Shown here piece by piece: positions 4,906 through 64,000 of a DNA stretch of 64,000 nucleotides. How positions within the stretch are numbered: position 1 is the stretch's first letter; the number at the start of each line of letters is the position of its first letter. Source of the DNA: Buxus sempervirens (lineage: Eukaryota; Streptophyta; Magnoliopsida; Buxales; Buxaceae); assembly GCA_947561395.2 (NCBI GenBank), contig OX387187.1, forward strand, positions 43,755,253 to 43,819,252. Reading direction: 5' to 3'. The notes below the pieces were generated by a model that was given only the letters and a program-made list of their open reading frames with translations, ran no database searches and was not told the DNA's origin. The position numbers were made by a program, and so were the translations under genes.

Positions 4906-5282
4906 AGACAGACGATTTCATTCGTCACAATTAGCCTTTGCAATCCCCATTGATGTTGGATTGATGAGGTAAGAGTCTACAGCCCAGAGAGACAATGCCG
5001 TAGTCAATTCTAAAAATAAAACAAAAGAAAAGGATTCTAGGACATTTGATTCAGTCCGAGACTTTTATTTTTATTTTTTTCCCTTCTCTTAACAAATTAC
5101 TGGTGTCTTCCTTACAGAATGCATAGCAGCAAAACATGTACTTAATGAGAATTTTCTCCACATGAATGGCAGGTTACGTGTTCTGCAAGTGCTGATTCCC
5201 ACAAAAGCGGGAATTAAGAAATGCTGAATTAGCCTGTCATGAAAGGAGATAAGGACATGCCTCACTGGATGCAACCTAAGGT

Positions 5283-8200
5283 TCAGTTTATGGTGTTTGG
5301 TGCCGCCAATGCAATTGCAAGGTGGTTGTGGGTACCTTGGTATGTCACAACAAGCAGGGTAGGGTCCTTCTGACATCTTTCTACATGCTTCCTTGCAGGA
5401 CATCCCCTTATGCTGCTGCATCTGTAATAACTCCTGTAAAGTGAAGCATGAATTTTACATCATCACTGTTATCAGTTGTTAAAGCTAACTCAAGCACAAT
5501 CATTTACAATGACATCAAGAGAGGATACATTCAGTGATTTCAAAATTCAATTAGAATGGGATAAGGGATTGAACTAATATCAAAATCCCATCACACTCTT
5601 TCAGGCCTTTCAACCAAACAATTTGACCTCACAGGCTACTTCTGCTGAAGCACCAAGTTTTCTTGAAAATTCTACCTAAAATTTCTGATAAATAAAGGTA
5701 GAATGCCTATTGGAATTTTTATAAGAATCCATTTGATTCAATCCCCACCACTTTCTTCAGTCTGATAATCAAACACCAACTTTACATTCTCCATTTGTGG
5801 CCAATAAGTTACATGAGAAGTCAAGAGTATCAAGTCAGGGTGGAGAATGCAAAAAAGACATCCTTTCCACCGCTTTTTGTAGTTACTCAGCAGGGAACTT
5901 GAGCGTACATTTTGACAGATCCTGTGAAGGAGATCAACCATGCAAAACAAATTAACCTGATTAAATGCATACTTCTGTATGGACACTTGACTGTATCATT
6001 CTTCGGAAAGAAAAGCAAATCAGAACAACCAGATCAGGCCGGCCAAAAGAATTACTTGATGGGAACCATCCGGAGAAGATTCCCAGATTCCATAGTTATG
6101 TGAAGTGTTGACCACATTTATGCAGATAAAGATGGTTCTTCCACTGCCTTGCCTGTTGCATTCCTTAACACAAAGCAATCTTTCGGGTACCAAAAACAAT
6201 CACACTGATACCTAAATATGAGAAGATCCAGCAATTCTCAATTTATACGTGGATTCATCCACAGTTAATTTCAGAAAGCGGCAACTTGTAGCATAATTCT
6301 CACAAATAACTTACATAGGTACTTAATGGATCATGGTATACACTTAAATAAGAAAAAGTTGACTTCTTTTTTTTTTCAAGGTAAAATTTTTTCCATGGGA
6401 ATACAAATAAATTTAAACCATCTTGTCTATGCAGAACAAATAATTCTATCGGTAGAATTGCTCGACTTGAAGAAATGAAGTGACCCATTGAAGCAGGTTT
6501 ATAACATAGCTATGTTTCCTTTTTCAGATCAATGCAGAAGGATAGGAAGGACCAGGATAAATATCCATACCTTGGATGTGGAGACCCTTTAATAGGCTTT
6601 TGCCCATATTTCCTCCAGGAGAAATTATCAGGAGGTATGTCTGCTACTTTGTCACTTGGAGCAGGGACTTTAATCATTCTTTTTATCTTCAATTTCCTAC
6701 TAATGGCGAGAAAAAGAAACGAGCTAATTGCAAATTGGATAATAACAGAGCTATCGTGCAACTTACAACATTCTGTAAAATAAATGATATAAGAATCAGA
6801 AGAAGAAAACTATAAGAAATTTATCACTTCAACATGTGACCTGGTTATCTTCTACTCCAATATGAGTTGCAGACGTCCCAAGTCATAATTGCCATTTTAA
6901 CGTTTGATCATCACAAAACACCACTGACAATATATTGAATCACATAAATGCACACCAGCAACCCAGCAGAAAAAATGTTACTTGCAATAGCTTAAAACTG
7001 CTTCACAAGTTTAAACTAGAGTTTGAAATAACAACTTTAGAATCTATCATCTTGAAGAAGCTTGCCAAGAAAAACTAGAAAGTGGAAAAGTTTACATAGA
7101 GTAGATTAAAACCATTTCATAAGCTTAAATAAGAGTTTGATAAACAACTCTAGAATCTATCATCTTGAAGAAGATTTCCAGGAAAAACTAAAAAGACACC
7201 CATCCTGATTATTTATGATGGGTCTGTTTTCGATTTTGGGGGGTTTTCTGGTTTTTGTGAAGTGAGGGTTTGCTGTGTGCGGGAGAGTACTCTAAATTTC
7301 TTTTGTTGATTTAATGGAGTCTTACTCATCTTCTCCACCCTTTGTAGGCTCAATAGCCAAACCACGTAAATCAAAGTCTTTTGTGTCCTTGTGTTTGTCT
7401 ATCTCGTTTGTTAGTTTCTCAGCAAACACAAATCAAACCTTTGCTCAGAAGATGACAGGGAATATTTCAGAGGAAAGTACCAACCAATGCAGATTGAATA
7501 ACAACAACCACTCTGGTACAAGAATAGGCGAAAGAACCAGAAAAATACTGAGAAAAGGGAAAAAAAATTTACAGCGACCGTTAGATAGGATTTTTAAAAC
7601 AAACACTAACCTTCGCTTTGGGTAGCGACATCCTCTTGCTCCAGTTGAGTTCAGCAATCTTGTACTTGCCTCTTCACTTATCGTTCCACAGTTTCTTTCC
7701 GAAGTTAACACAGAATAATTGTCGCCAGAGATTAGAATTTTGGATTTTGACTCATGAATGATCTGGTTATCCACTCTATTTCCAGCCATAATGAATGAAG
7801 AGGCGAAAGAGTGTGCCGAAGAATGGGTACTGTTAATTTCAGTATAGCAGTGGCGTAGCGCTGGAATCTGGATTGGACTATAAAATTTGAAACTGTTGGT
7901 GGGCATTAAAACAGGTGTTCTCTGAAGATGATTGAGCTTCACCATTTTTGAGGGTGGAGGAATACAGGAACTGAATGTTTCAGGTGAAATATTGGGATAG
8001 TCCACCAAATTTCTGGGGTTGAAGTTTGTGAAGTTTGGCACGGGACCCTTCTTGATTCTCTTGCAGTTCAATAACTTTGACTCATCAAGGAGGGAAATCA
8101 GTTTTCTGAATTCAGTTACAGCATCATCAGTGATCAAGCTCATTTCCTGGATACTTCTAACCTGAACTTGACCAGAAATACAGTTAAGCAAGTGGTCTGC

Positions 8201-38530: not shown

Positions 38531-39867
38531 TTGGTTAGGAACAAGGTTTTAAGTTTTGGTGGCCCTGGGCGGCACCGGCGGCGTGCCGCCGAAACGCCGG
38601 AAAAATTTTAATGGCAAAAAAAAATAAAAATTTATGTTTTTTTAGATTTCGGCGAAATTTCGACGGAACGCCGCCCGTTTCACTAAAAAAATTACATTTT
38701 TCGCCCGTTTCGGTCCGTTTCGGTAGGCACGCCGAACGTTTCGCTCGAAATTTCGGTCCGTTTCACCAACGATACAAATTAACGATTTCCCCCAGCGACT
38801 AAGATCCAAGAGGATCATTTTGGCAGACCATTGCCGGTATAATAAACATTTAAGAAGTTCTTAATAAATTTAGCAAATACCAAAACGGGAACAGGGACGA
38901 AAGTTAAGAAAGGCTACAACCAAACACTATTTCCAAGCTTGTACATGTTGTCAGTTCTTTTGGTAAATGTTGTATAGGTTTGTGAGGACTTGCATTTAAG
39001 TAAATGGAAGGCTTGATCTTAAGATTTGTAAAATCAGCACTGGTGCATGATTTCCGGTGCAGTTATATTCCCGTGCAGCCGTGCTCGAGCTTCTTGTTTC
39101 TTCACCTTTTTTTTTTGAAAAATCTTTATAATATTTCCTTTCGGGATTCAAATCCTCAAAATTATCATTGGTGAACTTTTGACCAGCAAGAACACAGTGA
39201 ACCATTTAAATGCCTTCCACTTGTATCAAAGGGCGATATGGACATGACGAGGACCACATCCACTCTTGCCGATTTTAGGAGACAAAAAAACGGAGGTTTT
39301 TGAAACCCTAATGGGCTAAACCATCTTCCATTAATTTTTTACCGACTTCTTTTTCACCGAGAAATGAGAAAAGTCACCGTCTTTGGTCTTGTCACGTAGC
39401 GAAGAAGGAAGGGAGGGATAGACGGGCCAGGCAGCTAAGCTTTTAAGCTCCATGTGGTTAGGCGTTTAGGGTTTTGGGGAGTTGGGAGACTGAGATTAGT
39501 AAAAGAAGATGAAAGTTGAGATTTTTTTATTTTGATTTTGTCTTTGAGTTTTCAACACTCGTAATCGTACCCCACTTTAAATGAGGCCAAATTCTCTCAC
39601 TTCCTGTTCCTTCATTGGCAGCAGTAACAGTAGGAGCAGTTGCAGGCGCCGTTTCCCTTTTCCTACACTTCCTTCTCTTCTCTCTCCCCTCTTTTGTACT
39701 GTACCAGTACCCGTTCCTCTCTCTCTCTCTCTCTCTCTCCGTGCAAAGCCTATTTGTGGGTGTGATGGCTATTCTCTCCGGTCTTAATAAACCGTGAGTA
39801 CTAACTAGTTCACTTCATCCCCTCGCTTTCTTCCTTCCATCCTAACAATCAAAGAAACAGAAGAAAA
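38531..39867 (+). promoter_or_regulatory. Repeat remnants, then promoter and leader of the PLATZ gene
   Basis: 38540-38770 contains repeated GTTTCGG/CGCCG blocks of an unclassified repeat. From about 39550 the sequence becomes CT-rich, with an uninterrupted (CT)n run at about 39717-39740. This is a usual plant leader or promoter context just upstream of the PLATZ start codon. Confidence 0.4.
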
Positions 39868-40915
39868 ATGGTGGGTTCTTCTTCGGCTATTCCGCACTGG
39901 CTTGAATCCCTTCTGGGTGATAAATTCTTCAATCCTTGTTTCATTCATGAGTCTTCGAAGAAGAACGAGAAGAACATCTTCTGTTTGGATTGTTGCACCA
40001 GCATCTGCCCTCACTGCGTGTCTCCTCATCGTTCTCACCGACTCTTGCAGGTTTGCACAAATTAAAGCAAAGCGAATGCAACAAATTTCAATTTTAGCTG
40101 CGTATGAAATTGTCTCAACTACTATTTTCTTGTTTCAGATACGAAGATACGTTTATCACGACGTTGTCAGGTTGGACGATATCGAAAAATTGATCGACTG
40201 TGCCTTCGTTCAAGTACGTATCAACCCTTTTGAGGAAAACACAGAAAAGAGGAGAAAACGTAGAACTTCTTAAACCTCTTCTTATCTCTTGTCTTTGAAA
40301 ATCTTGGGTTTCTTTGTTTGCTACAGGCCTATACCACGAACAGCGCGAAGGTTGTGTTTTTAAATCAAAGGCCACAGTCTCGACCATTCAGAGGATCCGG
40401 CAACATCTGCAGCACATGCGACAGGAGCCTCCAAGACCCATACTTGTTCTGCTCTCTCGCTTGCAAGGTCAAGAACCTAAATTTAACCTTCAAAATCAAA
40501 ACCCCATCACTTTCTTTTCAGTATTTGAACAATTTTCCTTTGATCATCACAGGTTCATCACCTGTTGAGGAGCGAAGGTGGACTGTCCAAGTACCTCTAC
40601 AAGTGTGAATTCCTTCCGTTACCGGAAGGAGGAAAAGGGGATAGCTTTTGCGATCTCGAAGAGGGGCAAATGACACCTGACTCGGTCCTTGAATCGCCTA
40701 ATTCATTGAGGACGTCTTCTGGGTCCAGTGCAAGTGGGGTTGGCGTGGATTGCAAGACTCTTGCTTGTACTGCAACAACCGAGTTCGTGAGAAAGAAACG
40801 AAGCAGCATTTCTGTTACTCGGACGCCGTGTCGGCCGACGTGCTCACTTCCGTCCGACGTTGCCGTCAATCTGAACCGGCGAAAGGGTATCCCGCAACGA
40901 TCGCCGCTTTATTGA
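39868..40915 (+). CDS. PLATZ zinc-binding transcription factor
   Basis: Four phase-0 exons: 39868-40050, 40139-40213, 40327-40467 and 40553-40915, 253 aa. PLATZ proteins are plant-specific zinc-dependent A/T-rich-DNA binders acting in the nucleus, and some modulate Pol III. The N-terminal half has the family order PHWLESLLGDKFFNPCFIHE, FCLDCCTSICPHCVSPH-RSHRLLQ, IRRYVYHDVVRLDDIEKLID, then VVFLNQRPQSRPFRGSGNIC, CDRSLQDPYLFCSLACKV and a YLYKCEFLPLPE tail. The Cys/His zinc ligands are present. The C-terminal 100 residues are Ser/Thr-rich and end IPQRSPLY, typical of the family. The four-exon structure is also typical. The start Met fits known PLATZ N-termini. Confidence 0.95.
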
Positions 40916-53521: not shown

Positions 53522-54513
53522 TGTATATATTATTATTATTATTATTTTTATTGTTTTTTGTTTCTGTTGTGGAAGGGGTGTGATTGGGGCTGGGTTGGGG
53601 GAATTGTTATTTTTGTTACCTTAGCGTGTGATTTGGATAGTTAGAATACACTGAATATGGTTTTTAGATTTTATTGGGACCTTTTAGTCTTCATAAAATT
53701 TTTTTTTTGGGCAAGATGGGTTAAATTGAAGAATTAATATTTCATCTGGAAATTTTTTTTGAAGGTTATTGATGAATTGAATAAGAAATTTTGGAAATAG
53801 TACTTTTGCAAATATACAAAACACTTTATCTCTATGTATAGATGTGTGAATTATACAATCTTAAAATACTGAGAAAAATAACTGTGATATCTGAAATTTA
53901 TGTCTACCCATGTGTCAAAAATCACTCTAGGACAGAAAATGATGCCAGGTCAGAAAATATTGACAATTATGGACTAGGTACATTTTTGAAACTAGTGTTT
54001 TGGAGCTCATGAACATTTTGTCCTCAACTCCTTTATTTTTCTTTGTGAATTATTATCCAACTATGCATATTGTTTGTCATATTAGCCAACACTTGGGCCC
54101 CTTTTTGGCATGTATCATGCAGAAAGTAGGAGAAATCTAAGGAGATCAGGAAGCTCTGCCACTTTGAAGCGGGTCTTTCTGCAAATTTTGTCCAGCTACC
54201 GGATATAAATGCAGATTGGCTTAAGAGATGAGAAGGTATTGACTCAAATGGACTGAATTTTTGTTTCCCTGATCTTGAACCTACATTGGCTTTTCATTCA
54301 CATCCTTGTGGTCATCAGTTTTGAGGAAGTCTGCACTGGATGGACCGCTCACCCAACAGCAGTGACAAGAAAACTATGAAGAGATGGTTTTTCATAGACA
54401 AAAGGGTTGGGTAAGGAATATCTGAGGCAAAAACCATAGCTTGGATCAAGCAGCTCTTGAATATTACGCACTTTGTTCAACTGTTTCACACCTGTGCAAG
54501 TAGTCCGGATCCA
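52010..54513 (+). promoter_or_regulatory. Promoter and probably spliced 5' leader of the TPP gene, with a uORF
   Basis: A CT-rich leader with a (CT)n run lies at 52139-52160. It is followed by an ATG at 52247 that opens a 19-codon upstream frame (MDCLGVQFQVLFVIPVWTS, stop ending 52306). A leader intron is likely, because the coding start is 2.2 kb away: a candidate donor is near 52355 and a candidate acceptor GGTCATCAG near 54318. The span also holds a (TA)n run (53482-53517) and T-rich intron-like sequence. Exon borders here are inference. Confidence 0.4.
53482..53517. repeat. (TA)n microsatellite
   Basis: About 18 TA dinucleotides followed by TTTTTG and a (TTA/ATT)n tract, in the presumed TPP leader intron. 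Confidence 0.9.
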
Positions 54514-56769
54514 ATGGACGTGAAATCAAACCGTGGTGCTCCCGTTCTCACTAATCCTCCACCAGTAAGCCAATCAATAATAGGCATTCGTTCTAGTCTG
54601 TTAGCTTATTCACCACTGGGAGCAGCCTTCACTTCTCCATATCTAACAATTCCAAGGAAGAGACCTGGAAAAGTTGATGACATCCATTTCAAAGGTTGGC
54701 TCGATGCCATGAGAGCCTCTTCACCTCCTCGCAGGAAGATTTCCAATGATTTTAATGATAAAGATGTATCTGATAGTATTGATGTTGCTTATAGCTCTTG
54801 GATGGTATGCTTCCTTCTTTATGATATTTCAAGGGGATTTTTCACTGAAACTTCGTGAAGGTGACTTTCTTACCATTTTAGTTGTTTCTATTTTGCAGCT
54901 TGAGCATCCTTCAGCACTAGCCTCTTTTGAGCAAATAATAAGTCATGCAAAGGGCAAGAAGATAGCATTGTTTCTGGATTACGATGGGACTCTTTCACCA
55001 ATCGTTGATGATCCTGATCGTGCCTTCATATCAAACTCTGTAAGCATCTATCATGTTATCTTTGGCAACTTAAACGGCTAGAGCACATATTTGGTGTGAA
55101 AAATATTTTTGCTTTTATCCCCTTTCCTTCATGTTATTATTGAAGCATATTAACTTGGCAGATGCGTTCTGCTGTAAGAAATGTTGCAAAGTTCTTTCCA
55201 ACAGCAATCGTTAGTGGAAGAAGCCGTGATAAGGTATTTGGAAGATCCTTCTCAAGTGATATTCTAGGAATCTTGCAAAGTTTTTTTCACAGTTCATCAT
55301 GTGTTTATCTAGCTATTTTCTTCTTCAAGGTATTTGATTTTGATTACACATTCCAAAACCCCTCTGCCCTTCTGTTGATCCAGGTATATGAGTTTGTAGG
55401 ACTAAGGGAACTCTATTATGCTTGTAGTCATGGAATGGATATCATGGGACCGGTCAACCTCTCCGCGTCTAATGACCAACCAAATACTATCAGGTTTACT
55501 GACAAGAAGGTAAAATATGCTGCTAGCATACTATCATAAAACCCGATAATCATACTAAATAAGTACATATATAATCTTTTCCAATCTTCATACTGATCTG
55601 AGTTCTTTTCAACTTTAGGGTAAGGAAGTAGATCTGTTCCAGCCCGCTAGAGAATTTTTACCTATGATTGACGAGGTATGTAAATTTTCTTGACTACAAG
55701 GTGAAAAAGCAAGTTTTTGAAGTTAGACCACCACAAAGGGATTCTTATTATCTATTTTGGTCAGGTTTTCAAGTCTCTTGTTAAGAATACTAAAGGAATT
55801 AAAGGAGCACAGGTTGAGAATAATAAGTTTTGTGTGTCTGTACATTATCGTAATGTAGATGAAAAGGTATGGGATTCTGTGAGCTCAACAACATGATTTT
55901 GTTATTAAATTCTTTGATGAATTACTTATGTTGAACTTGATATCTGTTTTTTTTACTTTGAGGATTTCTTTTATTGGCTCCATGCTTTCAGAATTGGATC
56001 ACAATTGCACAATGTGTTTATAATATTATAAAGGAGTATCCATGCCTGCGATTAACTCATGGACGGAAGGTATGTTACTGAGCCTATTCATGGAATGAGT
56101 TTGGGGTTTTTGTCATTTTTGTAATAAGTTTGTTGCCCAAATTCCAACTCTTTGATCTGCTTTATGTTTACACAGGTTTTAGAGGTTCGTCCTGTGATTA
56201 ACTGGGATAAAGGGAAAGCGGTTGAGTTTCTACTGGAATCACTCGGTAAGCAACTGGCTTTCCGATTCAACTCTGAAACCTCTTCCAAAAGATTTTTAAT
56301 AATGTTCTTTTTTCTGTTTAAAATAATAATAATAAATTGGTGCAGGGTTGAGTAATTCTGATGAAGTAGTTCCCATATATATTGGAGATGACAGAACAGA
56401 TGAGGATGCATTCAAGGTAAAAACCTGATAAAATCAAAGTCATTGTCTAGTGAGTTGTTTATTTTCCTCCATGTATGCTACATATCAAATTGCATAATCT
56501 ACATAACCAGGTGCTGAGGGAGGGAAATAAAGGTTATGGCATCTTAGTATCTTCAGTGCCTAAAGAAAGCAATGCATGTTACACTCTCAGGGACCCATCA
56601 GAGGTACGAAGTTTCTGGTCCTTGTAACCTGTTTGAGATGCAAGATTTAATTTGTATGAACCCCCAGATGTGATCGCGAAGGGGAAATCATTGGTTACAT
56701 TAATTTTTCTTGAAGGTCATGGAATTTCTCAAGGCCTTGGTGAGATGGAAGAAGCTGAGTGCATTGTAG
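54514..56769 (+). CDS. TPP: Trehalose-6-phosphate phosphatase
   Basis: Eleven coding exons: 54514-54804, 54899-55039, 55162-55233, 55384-55509, 55619-55675, 55765-55866, 55992-56069, 56176-56245, 56346-56416, 56511-56603 and 56716-56769. They keep one frame and give 384 aa, the usual plant TPP size. The enzyme removes phosphate from trehalose 6-phosphate, a sugar-status signal, and belongs to the HAD superfamily. Motif I is LDYDGT (nucleophile D124, acid D126). SGRSRDK (162-168) is the motif II region, and [11 protein letters not shown] (326-336) holds the metal-binding acidic residues. [17 protein letters not shown] and the CHYR-type SVHYRNV are also family blocks. The N-terminus [15 protein letters not shown] matches the conserved start of plant TPPs and decides the Met at 54514. 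All catalytic motifs are intact. Confidence 0.96.
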
Positions 56770-58689: not shown

Positions 58690-58778
58690 GCACGCTTGGG
58701 GGCTTTCTAAATAAATCCTTAATTCAGATGATCAACCACTACTAGATGTTGATTGTTTTCCCTTTCTTCTTTCATTTA
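58690..58778 (-). pseudogene. 3' part of a split hAT transposase gene
   Basis: The minus strand from 58778 reads NERRKGKQSTSSSG, a stop, then SSELRIYLESP. This resembles the SELxxYLxEP block that follows the DUF4413-like region of plant hAT transposases. It is in the same frame as the fragment ending at 63625 once the inserted element and one TTA copy are ignored. It is decayed by stop codons. Confidence 0.5.
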
Positions 58779-59289
58779 GGCTCCGTTTGGATACCGAGAG
58801 AATGCAAGAAAGACATATGAGAAAAGAAAGTGAAAGAAAAGTGAAGTAAAAGAAACTGAAAATTAGTTTTCTTGATACTGTTTGGATGTCGCGAGAAAAT
58901 TTTATAGTTTTAATTGAAAATCTGGAATTTTGTGTTTGGATAGCAAGAAAGTTAATAGAAAGCTGAATGCAATTTCCAAGTCTACCCTCACGGTCAATTT
59001 TGGCACTTGGGTTGTCAGTTGGTCTACAGATGCACAAATGAACTTCGGCTTGGCTCTTTAACTATGTTGTGCACGCCAAAGCTCAACTCACACTTGTTAA
59101 CTACATGTTGGAAAAAAAAAAACAAAAAAAAATTTGAGTAAAGAAAAGGAGCCTCAAGCTGCGCTCATGTGAATGGAGTCAAGGTAGCTTTGCTCACCAA
59201 CAGTCCTAGTGATTTGGAAGTGATAAAACTAGGTCACCTTATTTAAGTATGGAAAGAATTCATTATCTTTACTTCTCATTTTAAATCAA

Positions 59290-59910
59290 TTATTTAAGTA
59301 GTGATTTTAAATCGAATGAGCATGCGGCCATCACATTTTGTGATGGCCATGACTTCCTTCCCCTAAAACGTGGTAAATACTCTTCTGATACTTTCACAGG
59401 GATATGTGTACCATCAATTGCACCCACACAATCCTGAGAATTGAAAGACATTCAATGTAATATCCTATATATAGCTTCAAAATTATGAGCAAATTTATAT
59501 GAGTAAGTACATAATAATACCTTAAAATAAGGATTCATCCTCAGATTGTCTTGTATCTCTCTTGGTGTATCGAGACCAGGAGACTTTATAAATTGATCGT
59601 GCATTCCAATTATTGCATGCAAGACAATATTAAAATACCGACTTATTGTCTCTCCGGAACGTCGGAAATATGTCTTACATGCACGATTTTTAACATTGTG
59701 TGCAACTATGTGCAGGAACATTGCTACTTGTTCTTCCACATTAACATGTACGGTATCATGAAGCCTACTCGTTGCTCTAAGAACATGTACAAACCTATCA
59801 AAGGATTCTATGTTCATTCGTAAATTGTTGAAGCAATCTTCATTATTAAGCATTAAATCTTGAATGAATTGCCTACTCGTTAAATAACGATTTCGAGCCG
59901 ACAACACCAA
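59290..59910 (-). pseudogene. PIF/Harbinger transposase, C-terminally truncated
   Basis: Exon 1 (59910-59521) has the family N-terminal block (LRMNIESFDRFVHVLRAT, VNVEEQVAMFLHIVAHNVKN and FRRSGETISRYFNIVLHAI). After an 87-nt intron (AAG|GTATTA ... CTCAG|GAT), exon 2 (59433-59290) gives CVGAIDGTHIPVKV and GRKSWPSQNVMAACSFDLK. The Asp in AIDGTH is the first residue of the DDE triad. The frame then meets a stop and homology ends, so the second Asp and the Glu are missing. The accessory Myb-like protein of Harbinger elements is not seen. Confidence 0.82.
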
Positions 59911-61376
59911 CCTTCAGCTCAGGCTTATTAACTACGGGAGCTCCTTTTTATTAAGCTTAGGCTCGACTCATGAGCCTAATTATTAGCATAAAGCTTGACT
60001 CATCAAGGCAATTATGAGCTTAAACTACACAAGCTTAATTAACAACCCTACTTTCCCCCAACTACCAGCTGGACAACCCCTCCTTTACTTAAGACTACAT
60101 GTTGGTTTGGTTTGGTTTATTTTAACCGAAGCTTCAACCCAAAACAGAACAGAACCAAATGATTAGAAGCCCAACCTAAAACACAAAGATTATTGCTTTG
60201 GGCTAGTTGATTTTCAATTTGAACTAACACAAGTTGCAACTCTACCAAATACCACAATTTTACTTGAACGAGCACTAGAAAAGTTGAGGAGAGGGAAGGA
60301 GAGAAATACAAGGCCTTTCTGTGATTCTTATTGCTCAAGGAAAATCATATGACACAATCTATAGAGATTTATTGGTTCGTTTGGACAATAACTGTGTATC
60401 GACTGGATATATTAATATCATTGAGTACATATATTATGGGGCACTAACTAGGTGAAAATAATGGGCAATAAGATAAGAATTTTCACCTGTTCTTTTGGAT
60501 CCTTTTGATTCTTTGTTGTTGCTATTGTCTTCTGGAAACTCTTTATATGATACTAGCTCTCACCTGCCATGCCATGCAGCTGGCGATAATCTACATAATT
60601 CTCCCACCTCAGAGGCGAATTGGACACTCGAACTGATTTAATAACACCTAAGCAAGTGGGTAGATTACCCACTTTCAGCTGTATTGGAACTGTCTCTGAT
60701 ACTCTACTTGAGGTTTGCCCTCACACTACGTTCAAGAATAAATGGGGAAAACAATGAGAGAGAGAATTAGGAAGCATCGACCTCTCCACATGATCTTGTG
60801 ACAGTCAAAATGCATTCCACAAGCATTAATGTTTACAAGATTTATTTGAACTACATCTCTAAAAGTTGTTAGTGATAGCTCCTAGATTATTTGAGATATG
60901 GTGTGATACAATTTCCTTAGAGAGGTTGGGCTCTCTTATGCCACCGGGCTTAGATAATTTAGTTCCTAGAATAAAGCATTATAAATTATATATTCCGTAA
61001 CTTCCAACATGCATCGATTAAATCCCACAGTGCTTATAAGATTATAAGAGAACATATATAGAGTATTCCGTTGCAATTAAGCTGTAAAATTACATCCCAT
61101 ATACTCGTCCATGTCACAGTATTTGTAGTGTTCAAATTTAAAAGTTCAATTTCCCACTACATGTAACAAAGCAGAGACAAAACTATGTCAGCTGTGCAAA
61201 ATAGTTTAAATACAGGGTAGAAAATTTTGTTAAAACAGAAAACAGCATAGAGAAATTTCAGTATAAAATCAGTAAAAAGGAGAGGAAAATCTGAATGCAG
61301 GCATTCAGATTATTTCGTCTAGACCAATTAAGGGATGAAACAGTTTAGATGGTTTGTACAGGGTACATTCTCATAC

Positions 61377-61517
61377 CTGACCTCCTAGGTCCCAAAATAC
61401 AAGTTTTGTTTTTGATGCTTCAATATGACCAATATTAAGTCCAACAGTTGGAACAATCCGGTCTGGAGGAAGGCCTTCTAAATTTGAGTAAAGTGCCTTC
61501 AGCTTCTCCAATAAAGT
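61377..61517 (-). pseudogene. Stranded exon of ARF-like GTPase GB1/ARFRP1
   Basis: A 141-nt, phase-0 exon bounded by ATGCAG| and |GTATGAG encodes TLLEKLKALYSNLEGLPPDR, then IVPTVGLNIGHIEAS and LVFWDLGGQ. It matches the exon of plant ADP-ribosylation-factor-related GB1 between GxDKAGKT and PGLRSIWEKYYEE. The switch I threonine (PTVGLNIG) and the switch II DLGGQ are intact, with no stops. The exon with the P-loop and the downstream exons with NKQD were searched for by eye on the minus strand within the element and not found. It therefore cannot make a GTPase alone, but the splice sites remain. Confidence 0.8.
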
Positions 61518-63298
61518 CTGCATATATGTAGATATCTAAATGAGCAAACCTGAAGTTTCTAAAGACATGCTTATAGAGAACAGTTAATTAACCAACACAA
61601 AAGAATAAAGAAGAAATGTATAAAGGAGTGCAATAGAGAATAAATATTTAGTTTAAGACAAAATGCTGCTCATACAGATATACAGAAGTTATGTAACTTG
61701 AGATGCATATTTCAGCAAAAATTTTCTATTATCAATTGGAATTTTGTCATTAACCATGCTGGTCCATAAAAAGTGCAATGAAAAATGCAAAACTTGATAT
61801 TCTCTACATCATCATCTGTATACATTTTTAAAATATAGTCTGTAAGCAAGATGCACAAAATATAAATTTTCAGCTATATTAGGATACCAAAACAGAATTC
61901 ATATTCCCTAACATAACTAACAAAAATAAGGCATCTTCTTGTATTATTACTATCATTGTCAGTGTCAAAAATGTCATTGAAAGAATGGAATAGTCCAATG
62001 TAAAATCAAATAAAATTATATTCAGAAAGAAACAATTCAATTTCTGCAAATTGGGTCAAACTTTCACTTTCTTGAAAGCTACAGCTGAGGAACCCTGCAA
62101 AGGAACTCCACAAAAAGTCAAAAAGGCGTTCTAAAAAAAGGAACAAACAAAATATAAAACAGAGGGAATCAAATTAAATCACAGTAGGAGAGGTCAGAAT
62201 CCTAACACAAGTTGCGAAATCCATTAAATCAAGAAGAAGAAAGAAAGAAATAGAAATGAGAATCTCATAAAGATTGGCAAGAATTAATAATTTCTTTGAG
62301 AAAAGAAGAGAATCCAAAGTAGAGTATGGAATCCAAATGAGAGAGAGAGATGAGTAACGGGTATTGTGAATTTGAGTCTCAGAACCAAAAGCCTTCTTAG
62401 AAATGATTAGTAATACAGTTTGTTAAGATTCCAGAAGAACCAAAGATTCTTTGAAGAAAGGGGAAATAGCAGACACGGAAGTATCGAAATTAGACAAAAA
62501 GTGTTAGATGGTATTGTAACAAATAATTTATTAAAACAAAAGTAAGAGATGCTCTAAAGAAGCAATAAAAAAGAAAAAATTAGCCAAAATTGGCAAAAGG
62601 GTTTAAGAAATGTTGCATGGGGAGCACAGATTCGTCCAAAGAAAACCACAATTAAAGACTTAAACAATAGAAATATTCTATTCGAAAAGGAATGTTCAAG
62701 TGGTTAGAAATTGAAAAATCAGTGGCGAATTTCTGAAGAACTTCAGAAGAATCAAAACCAAATATCATCACATGCCCATCAAAGAGAATTAATAGAAACG
62801 CCAAAAAAATTTAAAAAATACCAAGTAAATCACCCCCAAAAAATATTGATAAAGAAATTAATAACAAACCAGAATTCTGAACACAAGAATATACCGTAAA
62901 AGAAAGAGAGAGAGATCTAATAATAAACCAAAAAACTGAAGAGAGCCGTGCTAGGGTTTATCTTTTCTGAAAAAAAAACATTCGTTTCTTTTCTTTTTCA
63001 GACTAATAAGATCTAATTTCCAAGTTCTCTTCACTATCAATTTGATTTGTGTGAGGCATACAACGAAGATTTAAGGGAAAGCAGAAAAAAGGAGAAAACA
63101 ATTGGGAAGAAATTGTACTTACCGAATTGGTATTCAAGTTGACGCCTCAAACAATGAAGATAGATACGAACAAGAGCTCATGTGCAGAAAAACGCAGATA
63201 GCGTTGATGAAGATGGTCTTCCAAAAGATAATGCTAAAACAGAGCTCCTATGCAATGCATAGATTGTCTTTCAACGCTGAAAAGTATAATGATAGAAC

Positions 63299-63438
63299 TA
63301 TGTGCGCGGAGGTCTCCCAACAGATAAAGCTTTAACAAACGATAAAATTGGACCTCGAAGAAGTTCGGTTGAAAAAGAGAACCGTTGAAGAAGGGTAATG
63401 TTGGGAAGCTATGTGCGCGGAGGTCTCTCAACAGATAA
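63299..63438. repeat. Subterminal direct repeats near right end of the Harbinger-type element
   Basis: CTATGTGCGCGGAGGTCTC followed by (C/T)CAACAGATAAA occurs at 63299-63328 and 63409-63438, 110 bases apart. Weaker copies (ATGTGCAGAAA...GGTCTTCCAAAAGATA, CTATGCAATGCATAG) lie at 63179-63275. Confidence 0.8.
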
Positions 63439-63624
63439 AAGCGTTTCTCACGACGCAAAATCCGATCTCAGCGTACATGAAAAAAAAACCACGGTTATCA
63501 TCTTTTTTTTTCTTGAGAAATGATGGGCCCCACAATTTCTCGGTATCCAAACGCAACCGATAAGCAAGAAAAGCCTATTTTCTTTTCTTTTCTCGCATTC
63601 TCTCGGTATGCAAACAAGGCCTTA

Positions 63625-64000
63625 AAGAATTTCAAGGGAAATTATCTGGTAGTACTAATTGGGTTTGAGTATGACCATGTGTACTACTGCTAGTATCATA
63701 TTCACAAAAAAGTATTTCTAATAGGGTTCTTATTTTACGTATATCTATTTGAAAAAAAGAATTTATATTCTCATTTATTCCATCTATTAAGTCTTTCATT
63801 CTTAATTTAATCCTAGGGTCCATTGTAGTAGTTAAACAATATAAATTAGGCATATTTTGCCAATATTTTAAAATTTTAGCTTCCATTGCAGGGCAAATAT
63901 CCTTAGCAATGAAAATTTTTTTATATTGTTGAAAATAAATACTTATTTGATATAAACAAGTTAAAATACTCGGAGATATTGGGTAAAAACCGCTGATAAA
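63625..64000 (-). pseudogene. hAT transposase fragment, 5' part of the split gene (continues past the window)
   Basis: The minus strand is open from the right edge to a TGA at 63632-63634. It reads ISGFYPISPSILTCLYQISI, then IAKDICPAMEAKILKYWQNM, LYCLTTTMDPRIKLRM and LEILFCEYDTSSS. This is the MxxKFxKYW...LDPRxK region of plant hAT (RICESLEEPER-type) transposases, in the DUF4413-like segment before the dimerisation domain. The coding frame resumes at 58778 on the other side of the inserted element. Confidence 0.72.

Follow-up and report, generated by a model that had tools for sequence, protein, structure and literature searches.

Within the window (the whole stretch of DNA analyzed here, 64 kb), one exon on the minus strand comprises 47 codons of GB1/ARFRP1, an Arf-like GTPase. 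Read on that strand as TLLEKLKALYSNLEGLPPDRIVPTVGLNIGHIEASKTKLVFWDLGGQ, it contains no stop codon, is preceded by AG and followed by GT (Table 1). It is 141 nt long and in phase 0-0 (judged by eye from the parental exon borders) and extends, in terms of the usual motif names, from just past the P-loop through DLGGQ. The exon matched the Pfam family Arf (PF00025; E = 4.1e-5) and, in a tblastn search of the window, an Arabidopsis GB1 protein with 83% identity (E = 1.1e-20). This identity, together with the parental gene described below, is the basis for the name GB1/ARFRP1. All other matches of this GB1 protein within the 64 kb had E values of 1.5 or higher, and tblastn of the 10 kb beyond the window yielded no GB1 match at E values up to 1. 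A functional GB1/ARFRP1 gene would encode a complete GTPase with all G boxes; only one of the six parental exon blocks is present here. Matches of the exon to PDB entries (ubiquitin chains and others) were discarded, since they either added up from very short repeat matches or concerned unrelated chains.

The exon is enclosed by terminal inverted repeats (TIRs) and flanked by TTA on both sides, which together with coding features of related copies identifies the surrounding DNA as a PIF/Harbinger element. The TIR arms of the window copy (58771-58811 and 63589-63629, 41 nt including some flank) are 83% complementary; those of the fullest copy of the family, on contig C11, are 92% complementary over 37 nt, likewise including flank. 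At either end, the 3-bp target-site duplication reads TTA in the window and C11 copies and TAA in a copy on contig C6. In the C11 copy (∼8.05 kb), a Myb/SANT-like ORF is present (Myb_DNA-bind_3, PF12776, E = 9.6e-22), and the transposase is represented by three open segments, of which segments 3 and 2 matched DDE_Tnp_4 (PF13359; E = 1.1e-12 and 1e-7, respectively); the boxes IDGTH, DAGY, and ERAFG occur in the open transposase segments. No Pfam match was obtained for segment 1 of C11 or for the two transposase remnants of the window copy, the transposase piece of which is 99% identical in DNA to C11. The Myb ORF is deleted from the window copy, which is non-autonomous through deletion; at its second deletion join (59896-59900), a short microhomology is present. 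Adjoining the right end, a second TIR-like motif is found at 63533-63552, and the element's own 5′ end contains a 31-bp direct repeat (63298-63328 and 63409-63439, 97%), which the C11 copy has too.

Table 1. Features of the PIF/Harbinger element in the window.
Feature	Position	Strand	Basis or remark
Left target-site duplication, TTA	58776..58778		Empty site
Entire PIF/Harbinger element (4843 bp), derived by deletion from a family member of ∼8.05 kb (C11 copy)	58779..63621		TIRs, TTA, empty sites
Left TIR	58779..58811	+	Inverted-repeat search
Left (3′) element end	58779..59282		97% to C11 copy; first 121 bases also match C4, C6, C3, and C1 copies
Deletion scar with short filler; ∼2.8 kb of internal sequence missing (Myb ORF and remaining transposase)	59283..59299		Comparison with C11
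PIF transposase remnant (parts of segments 1 and 2, IDGTH box)	59300..59900	-	DNA match to C11
5-bp overlap marking an ∼390-bp deletion relative to C11 and C4; removes transposase ORF start	59896..59900		Comparison
C6-contig piece	59896..60476		C6:54627051 onward, 90%; full piece ∼750 bp in C11 and C4
Esterase-upstream piece	60527..61263	-	C4:8176018-8176760, ∼90%
736-bp piece of GB1/ARFRP1 covering exon 2, the last part of intron 1, and the first part of intron 2	61264..61999	-	92% to C9:45687337-45688072
Captured GB1 exon 2	61377..61517	-	47 codons, 97% to parent; three synonymous differences and one Arg/His
PLATZ-gene piece, from inside first intron seen	62002..62907	-	C8:47211462-47212381, 93%
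Own right (5′) element end	62908..63621	-	Matches many other genome places
Right TIR	63589..63621	-	Inverted-repeat search
Right target-site duplication, TTA	63622..63624		Sequence

A preliminary description of this stretch had reported the exon with its frame and both splice sites, enclosed by TTA-flanked TIRs, and both statements are borne out, the first by sequence, Pfam, and tblastn, the second by the complementary arms and the TTA on either side. Its remark that the exon sits alone is correct insofar as this is the sole recognised captured coding exon in the element, and incorrect in that three other host-derived pieces were captured too.

Parental GB1 gene and insertion site

The genome (676.5 Mb, 247 contigs), which its gene content suggests to be that of a plant, was searched with the exon DNA, and seven places were obtained. 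One of these lies in a complete GB1 gene (C9:45685271-45690857), with six exon blocks in order, which is located on the same contig as the window, ∼1.87 Mb away; the other six of the seven are near-identical single exons inside elements. With the full-length GB1 protein as query, 18 matches were obtained: five of the parental blocks, the six copies that consist of a single exon, and seven matches at 35-44% identity, which are read as other Arf-family GTPases. The same genome search returned no second gene with GB1 exons.

The homology between element and parental gene runs across both intron borders (four differences in the 141 positions of the exon, 54 in the 595 of its flanks), and a 736-bp match to the GB1 gene of the same genome is no chance likeness. 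Because both exon and introns are included, it was DNA, and not mRNA, that was copied. That the exon is a retrocopy or an exon-shuffled cDNA is ruled out by the parental intron sequence found on both sides of it, and no further exon adjoins it; such an origin has virtually no probability. The earlier reading, according to which a PIF/Harbinger element captured a genomic GB1 fragment and not a retrocopy, therefore stands: the parental introns were copied along, and the genome check for a parental GB1 yielded one complete gene, with 92% identity over exon plus flanking intron. GB1 exons just outside the element, or the lack of any other GB1 locus, would have told against that reading; no GB1 exon was found outside the element in the window or the next 10 kb, and another GB1 locus exists.

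Correct splice borders and an intact frame are also what would be seen if the exon were the leftover of a GB1 gene native to this place and broken or interrupted by the transposon. However, neither the 64-kb window nor the next 10 kb contains another GB1 exon, the complete gene stands 1.87 Mb away, and the same fragment occurs in five further copies on other contigs. The insertion site itself points the same way. When the two flanks were joined at one TTA (240 bases, with the join at 120) and used as a query, all 40 scored places (688 candidates) matched from position 38-41 to 240, straight across the join, at 89-93% identity. In 39 of these 40, the span was 200-204 bases, and in one 197, with nothing of element size in between, as read from the match coordinates. 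This uninterrupted match indicates that the element landed inside another repeat. On the strength of the GB1 searches of genome and neighborhood and of the empty sites, a GB1 gene in place was rejected, and we leave next to no room for it. The repeat around the PIF element has at least 40 other copies, and the right flank (63635-64000, minus strand) contains a piece of a hAT-type transposase (PF14372).

Further host DNA and sister copies

Host-derived DNA, GB1 included, makes up ∼2960 of the 4843 bp of the window element (61%), and its four pieces trace to four contigs. In the source gene of the PLATZ piece, the downstream exons matched PF04640 (4.5e-8 and 1.2e-18), and the upstream exon reached 22.6 bits for a B-box, just below the Pfam cut-off of 24.1. 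The esterase source stops short of a SASA carbohydrate-esterase gene (PF03629, 1.7e-74), ∼45 bp before its first ATG as counted from the ORF. Two ORFs near the source of the C6-contig piece had no Pfam match. For GB1, PLATZ, and esterase, the direction of copying from source to element is plain because the source lies within or next to a gene; for the C6-contig piece, this direction is assumed. The pieces are joined directly, 2 bp apart, or at a few bases of microhomology, the exception being ∼50 bp of filler at 60477-60526. Shorter matches elsewhere in the cargo searches resemble other repeats. The window itself also contains PLATZ-like frames at 39809-40912 (plus strand), by their motifs presumably a PLATZ transcription-factor gene; the matches of the captured intron include the PLATZ gene on C8, not this locus.

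The GB1 piece is present in six copies of the element on six contigs, namely, in the window and on C11, C4, C6, C3, and C1; these were located via the GB1 exon, and the count is of members that contain it. PIF transposase DNA was also found in each of the six, and the co-occurrence of the two indicates that the capture preceded the spread. The C11 and C4 copies are 98.8-99.3% identical to the window copy. In the stretches analyzed, the right ends of the C4 and C3 copies were not found, and the C1 copy is without the left terminal bases. In C1, C3, and C6, the GB1 piece is shorter, and comparison of these copies with the PLATZ, esterase, and C6-contig sources gave no match except for a 42-bp stretch of low identity in C1; the three extra host pieces mark the branch formed by the window, C11, and C4 copies. 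The C1 and C3 copies contain parts of a PPR gene (DNA matches of 82-95%; PPR_2 in C1 at 2.1e-10, positions 4912-5433 of the stretch analyzed); at the source, C6:46.42 Mb, this gene is open over 518 codons. Capture seems to have happened repeatedly in this PIF/Harbinger family.

A partial copy on C14 (C14:8373984-8374748) begins approximately where the C4 copy stops (element positions 62718 and 62738, 20 bp apart). It was considered whether the two belong to a single element, each half on a different contig, as their meeting near the same element position would suggest; against this, the C14 half is more diverged from the window copy (96.5-96.7% identity) than the C4 half (98.7-99.3%).

Fate of the captured exon

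From the lack of stops, the preliminary description had concluded that the capture was recent or that the exon is under selection. Neither part is sustained: the capture predates at least six copies, and the exon is broken by frameshift, stop, or truncation in five of the six. Those on C11 and C4, the nearest sisters of the window copy, each carry one single-base deletion, at different positions; the C6 exon contains a stop, and the C3 and C1 exons are both truncated and interrupted by a stop, with a second one in C1. When 141 bp received four random substitutions (substitutions only) in a simulation, 86% of the sequences remained stop-free. Between the window and C3 copies, the exon diverged as much as its flanks (5 of 96 and 20 of 294 positions, respectively; Fisher p = 0.81). 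None of the four codons changed between the C11 and C3 exons is synonymous, although these counts are very small; the corresponding Fisher test of synonymous versus other changes (p = 0.02) was run with an exon count of five in place of the codon count of four, and the p value, being slightly too small, is left out of account. Relative to the parent, divergence is lower in the exon than in the flanks (Fisher p = 0.014 for the counts given above), which speaks against pure neutrality; a difference in this direction would be expected from constraint on the parental exon.

Could the exon nevertheless have been recruited, that is, spliced into a transcript of the element or the host, with selection preserving it in the window copy? 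Its open frame and canonical splice borders, its length of 141 nt in phase 0-0, its location upstream of the transposase in the same orientation, and its being closer to the parent than the flanks are would all fit. Yet the different deletions in the two nearest sisters, the stops in the other three copies, two of them truncated, and the equal divergence of exon and flanks relative to C3 are at odds with it, the transposase start is lost from the window copy, and stop-freeness is expected by chance. Based on the broken copies, the divergence, the codon changes, and the simulation, selection on the exon was rejected, and recruitment is very improbable. The open frame of the window copy needs no selection as an explanation. 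The exon would thus be passive cargo that decays without visible constraint, its intact frame reflecting short age and luck.

For the transposase, stops were found in the segments of the C4, C6, and C1 copies. Between C11 and C3, the pair without a synonymous codon change in the exon, summed counts of synonymous among changed codons are 12 of 25 for the transposase segments and 11 of 15 for the Myb frame; between C11 and C6, the count is 22 of 49 over all four segments, a weaker constraint on the transposase. Judged by these codon counts, the element lineage appears to keep some constraint while single copies decay.

Origin of the chimeric element and known precedents

DNA was copied from particular loci, the resulting chimeric element stands at six places, and one copy later underwent internal deletion. 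We are highly confident of the explanation as a whole, namely, that a transposase-encoding PIF/Harbinger element captured the GB1 piece and then spread, with the exon as passive cargo. The stretch that such an element copied from GB1 into its 5′ region spans 736 bp and includes exon 2 and the adjoining intron borders. Breakage within the element may have been followed by interrupted repair, in which the polymerase switched to ectopic templates at short matches, and by re-ligation. The chimeric element then transposed to at least six places, as is seen from the shared fragment, the different sites, and those TTA or TAA duplications that could be read; the empty sites add to this for the window copy. 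The branch of the window, C11, and C4 copies contains the PLATZ intron, the esterase upstream sequence, and the C6 piece, and two copies of the other branch contain the PPR-gene pieces; the window copy is an internally deleted descendant.

The capture step itself was probably template-switching repair, which is favored because pieces from four contigs stand in a row. A gap-filling model with microhomology is described for animal elements in passages of PMC8277862, and short microhomology, as that model predicts, is present at some of the joins; these may be compatible with end-joining or with fusion of neighboring elements as well. Such a fusion, by which host DNA between two insertions is mobilised as one unit, is proposed for Pack-TYPE elements in parts of PMC8903248, and the second TIR-like motif by the right end could be a trace of it. 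It would, however, require separate trapping events for pieces from four contigs, and no TIR remnant was seen at the joins inspected by eye. We consider fusion unlikely, and template switching remains the preferred capture step.

The captured block lies wholly upstream of the transposase, and the PLATZ, GB1, and esterase pieces are in transposase orientation. There is a slim chance that the block replaced the 5′ regulatory region of the element, with the esterase-upstream piece as promoter and the GB1 exon and its splice sites as part of a 5′ leader driving the transposase in C11-like copies. If true, the transposon would have rebuilt its own promoter from parts of host genes.

Capture of host fragments by a PIF element is a known kind of event, and no new gene is involved. 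A direct precedent, with the same arrangement, is provided by the Pifvine-3 elements of grapevine, in which the 5′ region is often long (up to 3.5 kb) and in most cases matches host sequence, exons and introns included; in some cases, captures are common to several copies, and transposition is thus not blocked (Benjak et al. 2008, PMC2528002). Passages of the same paper report mostly TAA or TTA duplications and both ORFs in that family. The six copies described here likewise form a multicopy PIF group with transposase and shared 5′ host exon and intron sequence; of these, the transposase alone was found independently, the copies having been located via the GB1 exon. The host sequences and the genome are different from those of Pifvine-3, and the likeness is one of arrangement; a further difference is that in the present case each source is traced to its locus, and joins and an empty site are documented.

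Pack-MULEs combine pieces of host genes, introns included, in one TIR element; they belong to the Mutator superfamily and produce 9-bp duplications. The present element is like them in its host pieces and introns within TIRs and differs as a PIF element with 3-bp duplications. Gene capture by MULEs is also described in parts of PMC2528002. Pack-TYPE elements, among which Pack-PIF is named, are defined in passages of Gisby and Catoni 2022 (PMC8903248) as non-autonomous; the likeness consists of a TIR element with target duplication and coding-gene fragments. The term Pack-type, which the preliminary description had applied, is apt insofar as a fragment of a host coding gene, the GB1 exon with its parent located, lies between TIRs. 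Under the strict definition, which demands non-autonomy with no match to a transposase, it is not: the window copy retains ∼600 bp of transposase, and the family carries the enzyme, with open segments in C11. Turmoil-1 of Caenorhabditis elegans is described as having likewise incorporated two protein-coding sequences (transduplication; PMC2572040) and differs in its animal host and in having the captured sequence within its inverted repeats. In the literature searched, the term Pack-PIF was found only in PMC8903248; among the papers listed, judged by title and start of abstract, none concerned this capture of ARFRP1, and passages of a 2026 review (PMC13317346) do not mention Harbinger.

Most steps of a capture can be read here in one genome, from source loci, joins, and empty sites to differing captures in sister copies and decay of the cargo. 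Captured DNA also occurs in a family still carrying transposase, beyond stripped derivatives. The case is also a warning that selection should not be read from an exon in a transposon being stop-free and splice-ready, and such exons may be annotated as genes. Small RNAs directed against the genuine GB1 gene could, moreover, arise from cargo that is 97% identical to it.

Elsewhere in the window, frames at 54415-55536 (plus strand), ∼3 kb left of the element, resemble, by a motif, trehalose-phosphate phosphatase, and a tandem array of ∼21 copies of a 20-bp unit (73% matches) occupies 17158-17587.
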